The notes under the pieces: generated by a model | What the model saw: the letters and a program-made list of their open reading frames with translations, nothing else | Databases searched by the model: none | What the model was told of the DNA's origin: nothing | Program-made: the position numbers and the translations under genes | In this document: positions 6,328 through 13,042 of the stretch, piece by piece | How the letters are laid out: each line of letters begins with the position of its first letter | How positions within the stretch are numbered: position 1 is the first letter of the stretch | Origin: Bacteroidota bacterium | GTDB taxonomy: Bacteria; Bacteroidota; Bacteroidia; UKL13-3 | Reading direction: 5' to 3' | Assembly: GCA_030680835.1 (NCBI GenBank) | Contig: JAUXUD010000082.1 | Span: 62,001-126,000, forward strand | Length of the DNA: 64,000 nucleotides

Positions 6328-6591
6328 AGTTTTCTGTTTTCATTATTATTTACGCAAGTCCTGTGCCAATAAAGAAAATTATAGCAATTAATCGTGTGCA
6401 AATTACTGTAATACACACAAATATGCAAATAATCTCTGAAGTTATTTTTACACATCTTGAAAAAATTTGTATCAAAATGGGAGCAAAATGCAATTCTGGT
6501 TCGAGCCTGCAATTTACAATTAATGGATTGATTTAAGTTATGTTATTTGTTTTAATCAGCAGTTTCAATTTTAAAAGACCTATATATTGTT

Positions 6592-6599
6592 TAATTTCG
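6592..6599 (+). promoter_or_regulatory. -7 promoter element of the kdnAB-kdsA operon
   Basis: TAATTTCG matches the Bacteroidota -7 consensus TAnnTTTG in its common TTCG variant. It ends 23 bases before the chosen kdnA ATG, giving a leader of roughly 15-18 nt. This argues against the in-frame start at 6587, which lies upstream of the element. The -33 element is weak (TTTT around 6570). The rest of the interval 6328-6622 shows nothing else recognisable. Confidence 0.5.
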
Positions 6600-6622
6600 C
6601 GGAATCATACAATATATATATT

Positions 6623-7828
6623 ATGGCAGGAAATGAATTTTTTGGTACAGAAGAGAAAAAAGAAATAAATGATGTGTTGGAAACCGGTATTTTATTTAGA
6701 TATAATCATGATGCCCAGCGCAATAATATATGGAAAGCAAGGGAATTTGAAGCAGAAGTTGCCAAACTGGTAGGGGCAAAGTATGCCCATGCTGTATCCA
6801 GCGGCAGTACTGCTGTAACTTGTGCATTGGCTGCAGCCGGAATTGGCGCCGGTGATGAAGTTATTGTTCCCCCGTTTACCTATATAGCTTCAATTGAAGC
6901 CGTTATTTTTGCTGGGGCCTTACCGGTATTTGCCGAAATTGACGAAACTTTATGTTTAAGTGCTGCCGGCATTCGCAAGGCCATTACACCCAAAACCAAA
7001 GCAATATTATTGGTGCATATGTGCGGACAAATGGCACAAATGGATGAAATAATGAAAATCGTTAAAGAATTTAATCTGGTTTTGGTTGAAGATGCGGGTC
7101 AGGCAATGGCAGCGAGTTTCAAAGGTGTTTCAACAGGCCTTTGGGGTAAAACCGGATGTTACAGTTTCGATTTCTTTAAAATAGCTACAGCCGGTGAGGG
7201 TGGGGTTATGGTTACCAACGATGAAGCTGCGTATAAACTAGCCGACAGTATTGCCGACCATGGACACGACCATCAGGGTGATAACAGGGGTATGGAAAAT
7301 CATCCGGTTTTGGGCTTTAATTACCGTATTTCGGAATTACACGCTGCTGTAGGTTTGGCTCAAACCCGCCGTGTACCCATGATCAGGGATAAAAACAATA
7401 ACATTAAAAAAGCCATGATGGCCGAACTTGGGAAAATTAAAGGCATTGGCTTTGCTGTTATTCCTGATCCCAATGGCGACTCTGCAACTTTTTTAAACAT
7501 ATTGATGCCCGATACTGAACTGGCTCAAAAAACTGTTGAAGAATTTAACAAAAATGGGGTTTCGGGTTTTAATTACTGGTATACCAATATGTATCATTTT
7601 ATAAACCAATGGGACCATATTAAAGAAGGCAGGGTTGCAGCCAAAACCAATGTTCAGTTATTGGGAGCACCCCAGGATTATAAAAACCTGGATTTACCCA
7701 AAACCCAGAAAACCATTGGAAGATTAATTTCTTTTGGTATTAAAGCCACCTGGGATGATGCAGCACTTAATGATTTGCTGACTAAAATGAAAGTTTCGAT
7801 TAATTCTGCATTATCAGTTACCGCATAA
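6623..7828 (+). CDS. kdnA: 8-amino-3,8-dideoxy-manno-octulosonate (Kdo8N) aminotransferase
   Basis: A PLP-dependent DegT/DnrJ/EryC1/StrS-family aminotransferase of 401 residues. The internal-aldimine Lys186 lies in SFDFFKIATAGEGG, and the PLP-ring Asp157 in VEDAGQ. In Shewanella oneidensis KdnA aminates the 8-aldehyde made by KdnB from Kdo, giving 8-amino-Kdo for lipid A/LPS. Assignment to KdnA rather than another sugar aminotransferase rests on the immediately following Fe-dependent dehydrogenase (3-bp gap) and kdsA (16 bp further on), matching the Kdo8N pathway. The start at 6623 follows the promoter element and gives the family-typical N-terminus. It is probably the first gene of an operon kdnA-kdnB-kdsA. 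Confidence 0.88.
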   Translation: MAGNEFFGTEEKKEINDVLETGILFRYNHDAQRNNIWKAREFEAEVAKLVGAKYAHAVSSGSTAVTCALAAAGIGAGDEVIVPPFTYIASIEAVIFAGALPVFAEIDETLCLSAAGIRKAITPKTKAILLVHMCGQMAQMDEIMKIVKEFNLVLVEDAGQAMAASFKGVSTGLWGKTGCYSFDFFKIATAGEGGVMVTNDEAAYKLADSIADHGHDHQGDNRGMENHPVLGFNYRISELHAAVGLAQTRRVPMIRDKNNNIKKAMMAELGKIKGIGFAVIPDPNGDSATFLNILMPDTELAQKTVEEFNKNGVSGFNYWYTNMYHFINQWDHIKEGRVAAKTNVQLLGAPQDYKNLDLPKTQKTIGRLISFGIKATWDDAALNDLLTKMKVSINSALSVTA

Positions 7829-7831
7829 AAC

Positions 7832-8911
7832 ATGCATAAAAATTTTAAAAGTATTGAAAAAACCGTTTTCGGAAGGGGAAGTTTTAACCAGTTAGACGAA
7901 ATAATAGCTCCAAAACGGGTTGAGAATAATGGCTTCATGGTTTTTATAGTTGATAACTATTTTAAAGGCAAAGAGCTGGAAAAAAGGATTCCTGCAAAAC
8001 CGGAAGACATGGTTTTATTTATTGATGTAGATCCGCATGAACCCACAACAGAACAAATTGATGCATTAAGAGATGGGATTCTTGCAAGCAAAGGATTGCC
8101 TTCAGGACTTGTTGGAATTGGTGGTGGCAGCATTATGGATATTGCCAAGGCATTGGCTTTAATGCTAACCAATGAAGGTTCTTCCACTTTATATCAGGGT
8201 TTGAACCTGATTAAAAAACAAGGAATTTACCATGTGGGCATCCCAACCATTTCGGGTACAGGTGCCGAGTGTTCAATGACCGCTGTGTTAACCGGGCCCG
8301 AGAAAAAACTGGGTCTGAAATGCGAATGGACTATTTTTGATCAGGTAATTCTGGATTCAGAATTAACAGCCAGCGTACCCGTTGACAAGTGGTTTTATAC
8401 AGGTATGGATACATTTATTCATTGTATTGAAAGCCGGGATGGTATTTTAAACAACGCATACAGCATGGCCTATGGTGAGCAATCCTTAAAACTGTGCCGG
8501 GATATCTTTTTGGGTGAAAATGCGGGACAAAACCCGGAGAATGATGATAAGTTAATGGTAGCTTCATTAATGGGAGGCTTAAGTCTTACCTATTCGGAAG
8601 TTGGAGTTTGCCATGCATTGAGTTATGGTTTGGGAAAAGTATTCGGTGAAAAACATTGTTTTGCAAATTGCCTGGTTTTCCAGCATCTTGGAGATTATTA
8701 TCCTGAAGGTGTTAAAGAATTTAAAGTGATGCTGGAAAAACACCATGTGGAATTACCAACCGGATTAAGCAACAAATGGACAGATGCCGAAATAACGGAA
8801 ATGGCAACAGTAGCCTTTAATTTAGCGCACATGTGGAACCACGCAGTTGGAACCGATTGGAAAGATAAGATTACTGTTGAACGGATTGAAGGTTTGTATA
8901 GAAGAATGTAA
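7832..8911 (+). CDS. kdnB: Kdo 8-oxidase, iron-containing alcohol dehydrogenase
   Basis: A group III metal-dependent alcohol dehydrogenase of 359 residues. The dinucleotide-binding signature is GIGGGSIMD (95-103). The metal ligands are placed as in the family: Asp193 and His197 (MDTFIH), His261 (VCHALS) and His275 (EKHCF). KdnB oxidises the C8 hydroxyl of Kdo to the aldehyde that KdnA aminates. The gene starts three bases after the kdnA stop, so the two are likely translationally coupled. The pairing is the best evidence for substrate; the dehydrogenase alone would only be a generic Fe-ADH. Confidence 0.86.
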   Translation: MHKNFKSIEKTVFGRGSFNQLDEIIAPKRVENNGFMVFIVDNYFKGKELEKRIPAKPEDMVLFIDVDPHEPTTEQIDALRDGILASKGLPSGLVGIGGGSIMDIAKALALMLTNEGSSTLYQGLNLIKKQGIYHVGIPTISGTGAECSMTAVLTGPEKKLGLKCEWTIFDQVILDSELTASVPVDKWFYTGMDTFIHCIESRDGILNNAYSMAYGEQSLKLCRDIFLGENAGQNPENDDKLMVASLMGGLSLTYSEVGVCHALSYGLGKVFGEKHCFANCLVFQHLGDYYPEGVKEFKVMLEKHHVELPTGLSNKWTDAEITEMATVAFNLAHMWNHAVGTDWKDKITVERIEGLYRRM

Positions 8912-8927
8912 GGTTAATAAATATATA

Positions 8928-9764
8928 ATGACAAAAATAGTTAAAGTAGGAAATATAGAATGCGGAAGCAATGAGTTGTTTCTCATAAGTGGCCCTTGTG
9001 TAATAGAAGATGAATCCATAATGATGAAAACTGCCGAGAAACTGAAAGAAGTATCGGAACGTTTAAACATCGGTATGATCTATAAATCATCCTTTCAAAA
9101 AGACAATCGCAGCAGTTTAAAATACTATGATGGTCCGGGTTTAGATAAAGGTGTAAAAATTCTGGCCAAAGTAAAAGAACAATTCGGTTTCCCGCTTTTG
9201 ACCGATATTCATTACCCGGAACAAGCCGCTGCAGCAGGTGAAGTTTGTGATGTTTTGCAAATACCTGCCTACTTGTGCATGCAGTCTACTTTAATGGTAG
9301 CTGCAGCAAAAACAGGACGTGTAATCAATATCAAACACGGTCAGTTTCTTGCACCTGAAAATATGAAACATCCGGTTCAAAAATGTATCGATTCTGGCAA
9401 TGATCAAATCATATTAACTGAAAGAGGTTACACCTTTGGATACAATGATATGATTGTGGATCCAAGAAGTTTCTTTTTAATGGGACAGATAGGATATCCG
9501 GTTGTTTTTGACATTACGCATGCCATTCGTAAATATGGAATTCCAAGTGCCGATGCCAAAGGCGGAGCCCGGGAGTTTTTGCCGGTTTTAAGCAGGGCGG
9601 GAGTTGCAGCCGGAGTTGACGGAGTGTTTATAGAAACGCATCCCGATCCGGCAACTGCTTTGTGTGATGCTGCATCTCAACTGAGTGTTTATGCACTTGA
9701 AGAATTTTTAAAGCCCCTGATTGAAATCCATAATCTGGAAGTAGCATACAGAAAAAACAAATAG
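8928..9764 (+). CDS. kdsA: 3-deoxy-8-phosphooctulonate (Kdo-8-P) synthase
   Basis: The enzyme condenses PEP with D-arabinose 5-phosphate to give Kdo 8-phosphate in the cytosol. The protein has 278 residues from the ATG at 8928; an upstream in-frame start at 8847 would overlap kdnB and adds unconserved residues. Landmarks are SGPCVIED (21-28), FQKDNRSS, HGQFLAPENM and ETHPDPATALCDAASQL. Cys24 in SGPC, instead of the Asn of E. coli KdsA, places it with the metal-dependent class II enzymes. It is the third gene of the kdnA-kdnB-kdsA unit, so Kdo formation and its conversion to Kdo8N appear co-expressed. Confidence 0.95.
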   Translation: MTKIVKVGNIECGSNELFLISGPCVIEDESIMMKTAEKLKEVSERLNIGMIYKSSFQKDNRSSLKYYDGPGLDKGVKILAKVKEQFGFPLLTDIHYPEQAAAAGEVCDVLQIPAYLCMQSTLMVAAAKTGRVINIKHGQFLAPENMKHPVQKCIDSGNDQIILTERGYTFGYNDMIVDPRSFFLMGQIGYPVVFDITHAIRKYGIPSADAKGGAREFLPVLSRAGVAAGVDGVFIETHPDPATALCDAASQLSVYALEEFLKPLIEIHNLEVAYRKNK

Positions 9765-9874: not shown

Positions 9875-10552
9875 ATGAAAAAACTTGTTTTCTCAGTATT
9901 CATGTTCTTAGGCTTTTCATTTCAGTCCTTTAGCCAGTATGAACCACCCGTTCCAATAGAAAACAAAACCAATACAGCTGAAAATCCCGGTCAGCAACCG
10001 GCTTTTTATATTGGCCTGGGCACAGGCTTATTTTGCAAGTATGGTTTGATAGGTTTGGCGTTTGCAACCAGAATTACCGAAAAAACCCTGGCCGAAGTTC
10101 AGATAGGTTCGGGAGGATGGGGCAATAAGGCCGGTTTTTCAGTAACCACGAATGTGAAAAGAGTAAACGGATGGTGTCCGAGCATTGGTTTTAACAGAAG
10201 TTTTGGTGCCGATGCAATAGAGTTAGAACCTGAAGTAGTGAATAACGGAGGTGCTCCTTTTAAAATTAAGACCAAATTGAATTTGAAGCCCATAAATGTA
10301 ATTTGCCTGAGTATGCAAAGACAATTTGTTAATATGCGGGGTAACCGCTTTATTCTGGAATTCGGGTATTCAATACCCATTTCAGAAACTATAGTAGAAT
10401 TTGCAGATCAAACAGTTGTTTATAATGGAACCATCATTCCCACATCCAACCTGAAATTTTCTACAATTCAGAAAACAGCTTTTAAACTACAAAATCCTTC
10501 TGGTTTGTTACTCAGCCTCAGTTATCATTTTGCATTAGGTAAATATAATTAG
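9875..10552 (+). CDS. Exported protein of unknown function, possible outer-membrane barrel
   Basis: The 225-residue protein has a signal peptide (1-20, ...FQSFSQ). The body alternates polar and hydrophobic residues with many Gly and aromatic positions (e.g. FYIGLGTGLFCKYGLIGLAF, ~45-64). The C-terminus LLLSLSYHFALGKYN looks like a terminal strand of an outer-membrane beta-barrel. No family was recognised. It lies 110 bp after kdsA on the same strand, so it may be transcribed separately. Nothing links it to Kdo metabolism except position. Confidence 0.5.
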   Translation: MKKLVFSVFMFLGFSFQSFSQYEPPVPIENKTNTAENPGQQPAFYIGLGTGLFCKYGLIGLAFATRITEKTLAEVQIGSGGWGNKAGFSVTTNVKRVNGWCPSIGFNRSFGADAIELEPEVVNNGGAPFKIKTKLNLKPINVICLSMQRQFVNMRGNRFILEFGYSIPISETIVEFADQTVVYNGTIIPTSNLKFSTIQKTAFKLQNPSGLLLSLSYHFALGKYN

Positions 10553-10618: not shown

Positions 10619-11629
10619 ATGGAATTATACCTGGATTCAGCAAACTTAAAAGAAATTGAAGAAGCCTTTAAACTGGGTTTTTTAAATGGTTTAACCACTA
10701 CCCCCACGTTTATGCAACGCGAAGGGATTACCGACGTTGACGCGATGATTGTTAAATTATCCAAAATAGTACCGGTATTGCAGATTGAAGCACTGGGAGA
10801 CACAGCAGAGGATGTTTTAGCGGAAGCGAAAAGATTGCTGGCACTAGGACTTGACCCTAAAAAAACGGTGTTTAAAATTCCGGTTTCCTTGGAAGGTGTG
10901 CGCGCATGCAGAATGCTCCGCAATGAAGGATTATTGGTAAATGTACATTTGGTTTATACTTTGCAGCAGGCTTATATGGCAATGCATGCAGGTGCAACTT
11001 ATATATGCCCGCTGGTTGGCCGTTTACAGGATCAAGGTCATGATGCCCTTGATTTGGTATCGCAGATTGTAGATGCTGTTGACAAGTATGGTTACGATAC
11101 CAAAGTTATGTTTTCATCAGTTCGAACTATGGAACATGTTCGCAATGCCATCAATCTGGGCGCACATACCATTACAGTTCCATTAAAAATAATGAAACAG
11201 CTAACCGAAAATCATTTTACCACGGTAGGAACTGATCAGTTTATACATGATACCCGGTTAATGACAGTTCGTGTAAAAGAGGCTTTAAACGGAATCAATC
11301 CGATTGTTTCTGCCGATGCCAACCTCGCCGATGCAATTGTTAAAATGACGGAATACGGTTTTGGAGCCATCACCATTGTAAATACAGACGGAAGCCTGAA
11401 GGGCGTATTTACAGATGGAGATTTGCGCAGAAAAATTCAAAGCGATGGCCGCGATGTTTTAAGTAAAAAAATGGGAGATTTTGAATATGGTAAACCTGTT
11501 TCCATTGAGGGAGGCGCTTTATTAAATGAAGCCGCAGGCATATTTAAATCCACCAAAGTTGATACCATTCTGGTAACTGATGATGGCAAACCCATGGGAA
11601 TGCTGGATATTCAGGATTTAGAAGCTTAA
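10619..11629 (+). CDS. Transaldolase/F6P-aldolase-like enzyme fused to a CBS pair; candidate arabinose-5-phosphate source
   Basis: The 336-residue protein has two parts. Residues 1-~220 match the small transaldolase/fructose-6-phosphate aldolase (FSA/TalC) family: MELYLDSANL with Asp6, TTTPT (26-30; usually TTNPS/T), Schiff-base Lys86 in VFKIPVS, and PLVGRLQDQG (~131-140), where E. coli FSA has its Tyr131 (here Leu132). The FSA residue Gln59 aligns with Glu57, as in true transaldolases. Residues ~225-336 are two CBS motifs (e.g. GVFTDGDLRRKI, 262-273), exactly the accessory found at the C-terminus of KdsD/KpsF arabinose-5-phosphate isomerases. No SIS-domain KdsD is in the window, while kdsA, kdsC, kdnA and kdnB surround this gene. 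Inference: it supplies or regulates A5P. Alternatives are a pentose-phosphate transaldolase or a regulatory paralogue. Confidence 0.75.
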   Translation: MELYLDSANLKEIEEAFKLGFLNGLTTTPTFMQREGITDVDAMIVKLSKIVPVLQIEALGDTAEDVLAEAKRLLALGLDPKKTVFKIPVSLEGVRACRMLRNEGLLVNVHLVYTLQQAYMAMHAGATYICPLVGRLQDQGHDALDLVSQIVDAVDKYGYDTKVMFSSVRTMEHVRNAINLGAHTITVPLKIMKQLTENHFTTVGTDQFIHDTRLMTVRVKEALNGINPIVSADANLADAIVKMTEYGFGAITIVNTDGSLKGVFTDGDLRRKIQSDGRDVLSKKMGDFEYGKPVSIEGGALLNEAAGIFKSTKVDTILVTDDGKPMGMLDIQDLEA

Positions 11630-11633
11630 TTGC

Positions 11634-12224
11634 CTAATACGAACCGTAGGTTGGATATTTATTATAGTCGAGAATATATTTACGGTAAAAATCTGCTCCG
11701 CCGTTACGCGTAACGGCATGCTTGCATATTGAAGAAACACCCACAATATTGTGTTCTTCGTTTTTTATAAAATTACAGTTTGATCCGCTTTCACCTAAAC
11801 AGGTGTTCATATTGTTGTCGAAGTTCAGTGGAAATTCGTTTTTAATACCGGCAATATCACCAAAGCAGGGAAACGCAATTTTCAAAAGCTTATTTGAATA
11901 ATTTCCATCCATGGTTAAATAATAGTGACCATAAGGGCCTTCAATTTTAAAATTTCCCATCGTAAAATTGGCGTGTTCTACTTCATCAATATAAACAAAA
12001 TGCAATGCATCAATATTGTCTAAAACTGCAATGCCATTTTTAAAATAACCAATACCCACCCGGTCATCCATTAAACGGATAATGGTATCTGTTGAAGCTA
12101 AACCGGAAGTTTTTAAATTGATTTGGTTTGATGAAGCTGTTAAATATTCCTTACCTGTGATAGGATATTCCAGAAATGTTAAAACGACAAAAACCATTGA
12201 ACAGATAAAAATTAATTTTTTCAT
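11634..12224 (-). CDS. Exported protein of unknown function
   Basis: The 196-residue protein begins with a hydrophobic signal-like segment (MKKLIFICSMVFVVLTFLEY) and has four later cysteines in two groups (FPCFG..., TCLGESGSNC...) that could form disulfides in the periplasm. No family was recognised. It lies on the opposite strand, four bases from the end of the transaldolase-CBS gene, with its 5' end divergent from kdsC. It interrupts the Kdo genes and is probably unrelated to them. Its reading frame and signal peptide look genuine. Confidence 0.55.
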   Translation of the reverse strand: MKKLIFICSMVFVVLTFLEYPITGKEYLTASSNQINLKTSGLASTDTIIRLMDDRVGIGYFKNGIAVLDNIDALHFVYIDEVEHANFTMGNFKIEGPYGHYYLTMDGNYSNKLLKIAFPCFGDIAGIKNEFPLNFDNNMNTCLGESGSNCNFIKNEEHNIVGVSSICKHAVTRNGGADFYRKYILDYNKYPTYGSY

Positions 12225-12311: not shown

Positions 12312-12319
12312 TATATTTG
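12312..12319 (+). promoter_or_regulatory. -7 promoter element for kdsC, nearly leaderless
   Basis: TATATTTG is a perfect TAnnTTTG element ending 9 bases before the ATG at 12329. Transcription should therefore start within a few bases of the start codon, giving a leaderless or nearly leaderless mRNA. The alternative TTG start at 12317 would lie inside the promoter element and is rejected on that ground. Confidence 0.55.
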
Positions 12320-12328
12320 AACCCAATC

Positions 12329-13042
12329 ATGAATACGAACCATACTGAATCGATCTTTACCCAAATAGGAGGCGTTTTTTGTACCCCTGCGGAAAAATTA
12401 ACCGATAAGTTAAAAACCATTAAAGCATTTGTGTTTGATTGGGATGGTGTATTTAATAATGCTGCCAAAAATGAAAACAAAAGCAGCACCTTTAATGAAG
12501 CAGACAGCATGGGTACCAATATGCTTCGGTTCAGCCATTATATTTTAAACAATAAATTGCCCGCAACGGCCATTATTTCGGGGGAGAAAAATGAGATGGC
12601 GTTATACTTTTGTAATCGCGAGCATTTTGATGCATGTTATTATAAAATTCCGGATAAAATTATAGCGTTACAAAATTTTTGCGGATTGAACCAACTCAAA
12701 ATAGAAGAGGTATGTTATGTGTTTGATGATGTATTGGATTTAAGTATCGCAGCTGTATGCGGAGTAAGAATTTTAATCAACCGTAAAGCCAATCCCTTAT
12801 TCAAAAATTATATTGTTCAAAATAATTTTGCAGATTATATCACGGCCCACGAAAGCGGAAACTTTGCCGTACGCGAAGCCTGCGAATTAATGATCGGACT
12901 CCTTGGAAATTATAATCAATGTATGGATGAGCGCAAAGATTTCACACCGCTTTATGCTACTTACCTCGCACAAAGGCAATCCGGCGAAACCGGATTTTTT
13001 ACTCAAATTGATGGAGTGGTTATTGAAGGAGAGAGAGGGTAG
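12329..13042 (+). CDS. kdsC: KdsC-like Kdo-8-phosphate phosphatase (HAD superfamily)
   Basis: KdsC releases phosphate from Kdo-8-P to give Kdo. The 237-residue protein carries HAD motif I FDWDGVFN (Asp37, Asp39), motif II Ser in IISGEKNEMA, a Lys in KIPDKIIAL, and motif IV FDDVLDLSIAAVCG. It then has the KdsC-type tail AHESGNFAVREACELMI. It is longer than the usual ~170-190 residues: an N-terminal extension of about 30 residues (with FTQIGGVF) and a C-terminal extension of about 40 (with FTQIDGVV). Motif I carries Trp and Phe where classic KdsC has Val and Leu. Substrate is inferred from context. The stop codon and last residues lie in an octamer repeat. Confidence 0.8.
   Translation: MNTNHTESIFTQIGGVFCTPAEKLTDKLKTIKAFVFDWDGVFNNAAKNENKSSTFNEADSMGTNMLRFSHYILNNKLPATAIISGEKNEMALYFCNREHFDACYYKIPDKIIALQNFCGLNQLKIEEVCYVFDDVLDLSIAAVCGVRILINRKANPLFKNYIVQNNFADYITAHESGNFAVREACELMIGLLGNYNQCMDERKDFTPLYATYLAQRQSGETGFFTQIDGVVIEGERG

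Follow-up and report, generated by a model that had tools for sequence, protein, structure and literature searches.

A transaldolase-like barrel fused to a CBS pair as a putative replacement of KdsD in Bacteroidota

In a stretch of 64,000 nucleotides from a Bacteroidota contig (JAUXUD010000082.1, positions 62,001 to 126,000, hereafter the window), a transaldolase/FSA-like domain and a CBS pair are joined in one protein, encoded in an operon for Kdo-type sugars. We consider it likely that this fusion is a non-homologous replacement of the KdsD function. The same pathway slot had been proposed for it in an earlier note on this DNA, and the proposal is supported by the mutual exclusion of the fusion and KdsD, by the linkage to kdsA, kdsC and kdsB, by the presence of a separate transaldolase in the genome and by the KdsD type of the CBS pair. 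The first committed step towards Kdo is the isomerase reaction giving D-arabinose 5-phosphate (A5P); KdsD is composed of a SIS domain and two CBS domains (PMC10448790). Judged by its sequence, the fusion is placed outside KdsD because it has no SIS domain (PF01380 is absent, Pfam giving TAL_FSA and CBS only), and outside the TalC/FSA equivalog because it scores below the cut-off of that family and its pocket is changed. Neither a transaldolase-CBS fusion nor a substitute for KdsD was found described in the literature searched, which consisted largely of papers available without subscription.

The Pfam TAL_FSA model matched residues 3-201 of the fusion with 129.6 bits (cut-off 27) and the CBS model residues 229-274 with 53.4 bits (cut-off 24). 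The second CBS repeat is under the Pfam threshold, yet residues 226-334 align to solved KdsD CBS pairs. In the AlphaFold model, the fusion is made of a barrel and a CBS pair (mean pLDDT 92.4, pTM 0.69). As a fold search with the whole model gave transaldolase-fold entries only, the CBS pair was predicted alone (pLDDT 86.2) and searched separately; the barrel matched bacterial transaldolases and FSA with Z 28-30. Pfam, alignment and model thus bear out the Schiff-base aldolase domain joined to a CBS pair that had been described from the sequence. Homologues of the fusion are present in at least 80 loci from named genomes, with 76-93% identity and a conserved gene order, which excludes a chance origin. 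The mean column conservation is 0.92 for the barrel versus 0.79 for the CBS pair, indicating that the barrel is under stronger constraint, and in a tree the fusions and the housekeeping enzymes form two separate clades (100/100). The fusion was also found at 80-81% identity in two records titled Saccharibacteria (L081) and Azovibrio (L094), which are probably mis-binned or mis-titled MAGs.

Table 1. Coordinates of the fusion, its domains and the neighbouring genes in the window.
Feature	Position	Strand	Basis or remark
KdnA-like 8-amino-3,8-dideoxy-manno-octulosonate transaminase	6587..7828	+	5k8b, E 3.2e-126
KdnB-like 3-deoxy-manno-octulosonate 8-oxidase, iron-type dehydrogenase	7832..8911	+	best relative 5k8c, E 2.7e-123
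KdsA (3-deoxy-8-phosphooctulonate synthase), divergent fusion-associated clade	8928..9764	+	TIGR01362, 333 bits (cut-off 314)
Small outer-membrane-barrel-like ORF between kdsA and fusion	9875..10552	+	in 14 of 80 loci
Transaldolase/FSA-like domain and CBS pair fusion, 336 aa	10619..11629	+	intact ORF; putative A5P-supplying enzyme
TAL/FSA-type (beta/alpha)8 domain, residues 1-214	10619..11260	+	Pfam, residue comparison, fold match
CBS pair, residues 229-334, with the GVFTDGDLRR stretch common to KdsD CBS pairs	11303..11620	+	Pfam, alignment
Small ORF downstream of fusion	11634-12224	minus	
KdsC-like HAD phosphatase	12317..13042	+	KdsC model, 54.8 bits (cut-off 208)

As listed in Table 1, relatives of KdnA, KdnB and KdsA lie upstream of the fusion and a KdsC-like protein downstream, and for this reason the operon is assigned, on predicted gene functions, to Kdo and 8-amino-Kdo. 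KdnA (5k8b) is the sole PDB relative of the aminotransferase at E < 1e-60, and the kdsA frame is open from 8847, upstream of its likely start. The KdsC-like HAD protein gave no Pfam match and appears as a diverged phosphatase travelling with the fusion. The placement of the fusion between kdsA and kdsC is confirmed for the flanks, but one small ORF is found on each side and the KdsC-like protein has diverged. The barrel-like ORF upstream, 31-57% identical where present, is probably outside the function. The KdnA/KdnB (8-amino-Kdo) operon and the altered KdsA pocket had been overlooked by the earlier note.

Among the best 80 fusion loci, kdnA and kdnB were detected in 48, kdsA in 50, the kdsC-like gene in 56 and kdsB in 37; at least one Kdo gene was present in 69, and kdsD was nearby in none. 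The gene order is kdnA-kdnB-kdsA-fusion-kdsC-kdsB in one genome (G091) and kdsA-fusion-kdsC with no adjacent kdnAB in another (G146). The fusion stands without nearby kdnA or kdnB at locus L103, from the cultured strain Chitinophagaceae bacterium LGM1, and is unlinked to kdsA in G190 and G232. As a side observation, 8-amino-Kdo is suggested for fusion-bearing Bacteroidota by their relatives of KdnA and KdnB.

The genome from which the window is derived (4.3 Mb, 99.8% complete) was analyzed for the enzymes expected under either reading of the fusion. A canonical transaldolase of 225 aa with the TTNPS motif is encoded on contig C50 and reaches 274.5 bits with TIGR00875 (cut-off 245.95); the separate housekeeping transaldolase that the earlier note had called for is thus present, and the idea that the fusion is the only transaldolase of this genome was ruled out. 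With PF01380 and TIGR00393, no SIS-type A5P isomerase was detected in this genome, whose SIS proteins are GlmS, MurQ, GmhA and PGI/PMI. There is thus no canonical KdsD in it, and a hidden SIS-only or SIS-CBS isomerase was rejected on the same evidence. In 30 fusion genomes altogether, no other SIS A5P isomerase was found; the identity of the SIS proteins was established by family model in the genome of the window and by size and position in 29 more, where the matches fit GlmS, MurQ, GmhA and PGI/PMI. The loss of KdsD could in principle be compensated elsewhere.

The distribution of the fusion, KdsA and KdsD was determined by searching one same set of 198 Bacteroidota genomes. The fusion is sharply set off in this set, with four matches at E < 1e-160 and the next ones, at 2e-45, corresponding to ordinary transaldolases. 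KdsA was above its cut-off in 145 genomes and KdsD in 143. With the addition of G128 (308 bits) and of G052, in which KdsA is split into two ORFs, the KdsA-positive genomes amount to 147, and these comprise 142 with KdsD only, four with the fusion only, one with neither (G023) and none with both (Fisher p 2.7e-7 for the exclusion, a value that ignores phylogeny). In the 64 genomes of the order to which the window belongs, 34 have the fusion, 21 have KdsD and none has both. The anticorrelation with kdsD anticipated from the sequence is consequently near-perfect. KdsA is present in 33 of the 34 fusion genomes of the order, the exception (G224) being an assembly 79% complete, so that a search for fusion-bearing genomes devoid of KdsA gave no convincing case. 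KdsD is absent from 34 of 35 further fusion genomes. It is present in one MAG (G289), on a 33.5 kb contig (C126) and at its edge; the G+C of this contig is similar to that of the fusion contig (0.47 versus 0.45). With this one exception, the fusion is present together with KdsA and absent where KdsD is present. Since families f3 and f9 each hold fusion-only and KdsD-only genera, the exchange of KdsD and the fusion happened more than once. The distance from kdsD to kdsA is at most 2.5 kb in 36 or more of the 198 genomes; the slot that kdsD has there is thus the one occupied by the fusion.

Several genomes have neither protein. G023, which is 100% complete and KdsA-positive, has SIS proteins that look like GmhA, MurQ and GlmS. 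In the order of the window, KdsA without KdsD or fusion was observed in G230, G235 and G248, two of the three being incomplete. Five genomes of one genus of the same family (G216-G220) are without KdsA, KdsD and fusion, and may therefore lack Kdo. Finally, both KdsA types are found together with the fusion in G223 (contigs C9 and C10), possibly a transitional state.

The kinship of the CBS pair was then considered. By sequence, its closest solved relatives are 4o9k, 3fna and 3k2v, all of which are KdsD CBS pairs; by structure, 4o9k shares the first place, at the highest identity. The 4o9k structure is that of a complex, the ligand probably being CMP-Kdo. Among the CBS-bearing NCBIfam models, the best one for the fusion is kpsF with 62 bits, followed by an unrelated model with 26; TIGR00393 matches the CBS part only (62.1 bits, cut-off 203.7). 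Of 20 KdsD CBS pairs, 14 have the DGDLR motif seen in the fusion, which is absent from the four other CBS proteins compared. In a small tree with only four outgroup rows, the fusion CBS pair groups with the KdsD CBS pairs (92/85). These results establish the KdsD type of the pair through structures, model and tree. Its transplantation from KdsD, put forward by the earlier note, is only suggested, because of the four outgroup rows of the tree and because G190 encodes a standalone CBS protein that does equally well on the kpsF model (64.9 bits).

The active site was compared in 80 fusions and 26 housekeeping transaldolases. Asp6, Thr26, Glu57, Lys86, Asn108, Arg135, Ser167 and Arg169 are common to all of them, and the Schiff-base Lys86 and the sugar-phosphate clamp formed by Arg135, Ser167 and Arg169 are accordingly kept in all fusions. 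Lys86, Asp6, Glu57, TTTPT and Leu132 are as the earlier note had described them and proved invariant in the 80 homologues examined. When the sample was extended to 113 fusions (the 80 homologues and 33 from the genome searches, some genomes possibly occurring in both sets), 12 positions were identical in all, and four exchanges were found in every sequence: Asn28 to Thr, Thr110 to His, Ser130 to Cys and Phe132 to Leu. The original residues are retained in 26 of 26 housekeeping enzymes. The TalB counterparts of the exchanged residues (N35, T156, S176 and F178) are known, from structure titles, as crystallised active-site variants, and so are the counterparts D17 and E96 of the kept Asp6 and Glu57. 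The pocket departs from both known types, having neither the FSA Tyr nor the transaldolase Phe/Thr pair, and His110 stands in place of the water-positioning Thr. With the TIGR00875 model (TalC/MipB or FSA equivalog), the fusion obtains 170.6 bits.

The KdsA proteins encoded with the fusion form a clade of their own, with about 43% identity to the KdsA that accompanies KdsD. Four motif shifts are fixed in 55 of 55 sequences: KANR[ST]S to KDNRSS, CRQT to CMQ[ST], IKKGQF to IKHGQF and THSxQ to THxxR. Among them, the R to M, A to D and Q to R changes affect A5P-binding motifs of other KdsAs. The motifs altered in these proteins (kdsA of L046-L125, L205-L207 and L210) bind A5P and PEP elsewhere. 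In Aquifex, the CRQT arginine is Arg106, which reaches over the subunit interface to the phosphate of A5P.

In the mechanism that we propose, the fusion would supply an aldose 5-phosphate, most likely A5P, which KdsA would condense with PEP; the product would lead to Kdo and then, via KdnB and KdnA, to 8-amino-Kdo. A5P is probably the aldose phosphate delivered to KdsA, and it would be formed by an altered Schiff-base or acid-base chemistry. A transaldolase of Francisella has been crystallised with A5P covalently bound (3upb), which indicates that the transaldolase fold can bind this sugar at its lysine. The pentose 5-phosphate would be gripped by the transaldolase clamp (Arg135, Ser167 and Arg169), and Lys86, His110 and Glu57 would shift a proton at C2. 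The outcome could be the isomerisation of ribulose 5-phosphate or, by way of an aldimine/enamine at Lys86, the C2-epimerisation of ribose 5-phosphate. We hold such an isomerase or epimerase chemistry to be nearly evenly balanced between true and false. The Lys86/His110/Glu57 set resembles the Lys/His/Glu set of triose-phosphate isomerase in kind only. The CBS pair might sense a downstream product, for example CMP-Kdo or its 8-amino form, and act as an end-product brake. Taken as a whole, a new Kdo-precursor route, in which a transaldolase barrel turned pentose-phosphate isomerase/2-epimerase (His110/Glu57/Lys86) is combined with a KdsD-type sensor and a co-evolved KdsA, and in which this module took the place of the KdsA-KdsD pair on several occasions within Bacteroidota, can be advanced tentatively.

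Replacement of KdsD could also be achieved by another chemistry, the fusion acting as an FSA-type aldolase that forms A5P from glycolaldehyde and glyceraldehyde 3-phosphate (G3P). This sub-case has a precedent in a synthetic pathway in which E. coli FsaA makes A5P from these two compounds (PMC9947464, citing Garrabou 2009 and Sanchez-Moreno 2012). The Schiff-base lysine and the phosphate clamp kept in the fusion are compatible with it, but the pocket contains neither the FSA Tyr nor the transaldolase Phe/Thr pair, and a reaction between glycolaldehyde and G3P offers no explanation for the His at the water-positioning site. To our knowledge, folate synthesis is the only glycolaldehyde source of such cells, and it should be too small for the Kdo demand. 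As glycolaldehyde should be scarce, the aldol route was ranked second and judged physiologically unlikely. That the fusion is simply a second, ordinary transaldolase, with a CBS pair regulating the pentose-phosphate flux and with an incidental Kdo location and absence of KdsD, seems very improbable to us. The fold and the Z scores to bacterial transaldolases and FSA agree with such an enzyme; the TIGR00875 scores on either side of the cut-off for the separate transaldolase and the fusion, the four active-site residues exchanged in 113 of 113 fusions, the mutual exclusion with KdsD and the dependence on KdsA all speak against it.

The motif changes of KdsA are the main ground for a further alternative, since they imply that its aldose partner may differ from A5P. 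The fusion would then provide a different aldose phosphate to a re-tuned KdsA for a variant ulosonic acid, and fusion, KdsA, KdsC-like protein, KdnA and KdnB would constitute a co-adapted module. The separate KdsA clade with its fixed changes, the score of the KdsC-like phosphatase far under the KdsC model cut-off (Table 1) and the co-occurrence of KdnB with the fusion are in agreement with this possibility. Nevertheless, KdsA is still above the KDO8P synthase cut-off and retains Asn-Arg-Ser, the enzymes to which KdnA and KdnB are closely related act on Kdo itself, and 37 of 80 loci have a linked kdsB, so we find a different aldose quite improbable. Because the fusion also tracks KdnB, which is present in 32 of the 34 fusion genomes of the order, its role could lie in 8-amino-Kdo synthesis and not in the supply of A5P in itself.

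If the replacement of KdsD by the fusion is true, an unrelated fold in the A5P isomerase slot would explain KdsA-bearing genomes without KdsD. It would add a case in which a regulator module, the CBS pair, was kept and the catalytic fold exchanged, and it would represent a new chemistry for the transaldolase barrel. The A5P isomerase is discussed as an antibacterial target.

Compared with known systems, the fusion shares with KdsD/KpsF/GutQ (SIS and CBS pair; TIGR00393), which interconvert ribulose 5-phosphate and A5P, the type of CBS pair, the kdsA-adjacent position and the pathway role proposed here, whereas it is devoid of SIS and has for catalysis a transaldolase barrel in which the Schiff-base lysine is conserved. 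With the MipB/TalC-type transaldolases and FsaA (PF00923, TIGR00875; 3r8r, 3s0c and 1l6w) it has in common the fold, Lys86, Asp6, Glu57, Asn108 and the phosphate-binding Arg/Ser/Arg. Unlike these enzymes, it has a CBS pair, is encoded in a Kdo operon and falls below the TIGR00875 cut-off, and Asn28, Thr110, Ser130 and residue 132 (Phe in MipB/TalC, Tyr in FSA) are replaced in every fusion. Relatives of both KdnA and KdnB of Shewanella oneidensis (5k8b and 5k8c) are encoded just upstream of kdsA and the fusion, but those structures cover post-Kdo steps and involve no fusion. The Francisella enzyme 3upb is comparable in that a transaldolase lysine is able to hold A5P; it is a housekeeping protein of the TalB type that has no CBS pair and none of the four exchanges.
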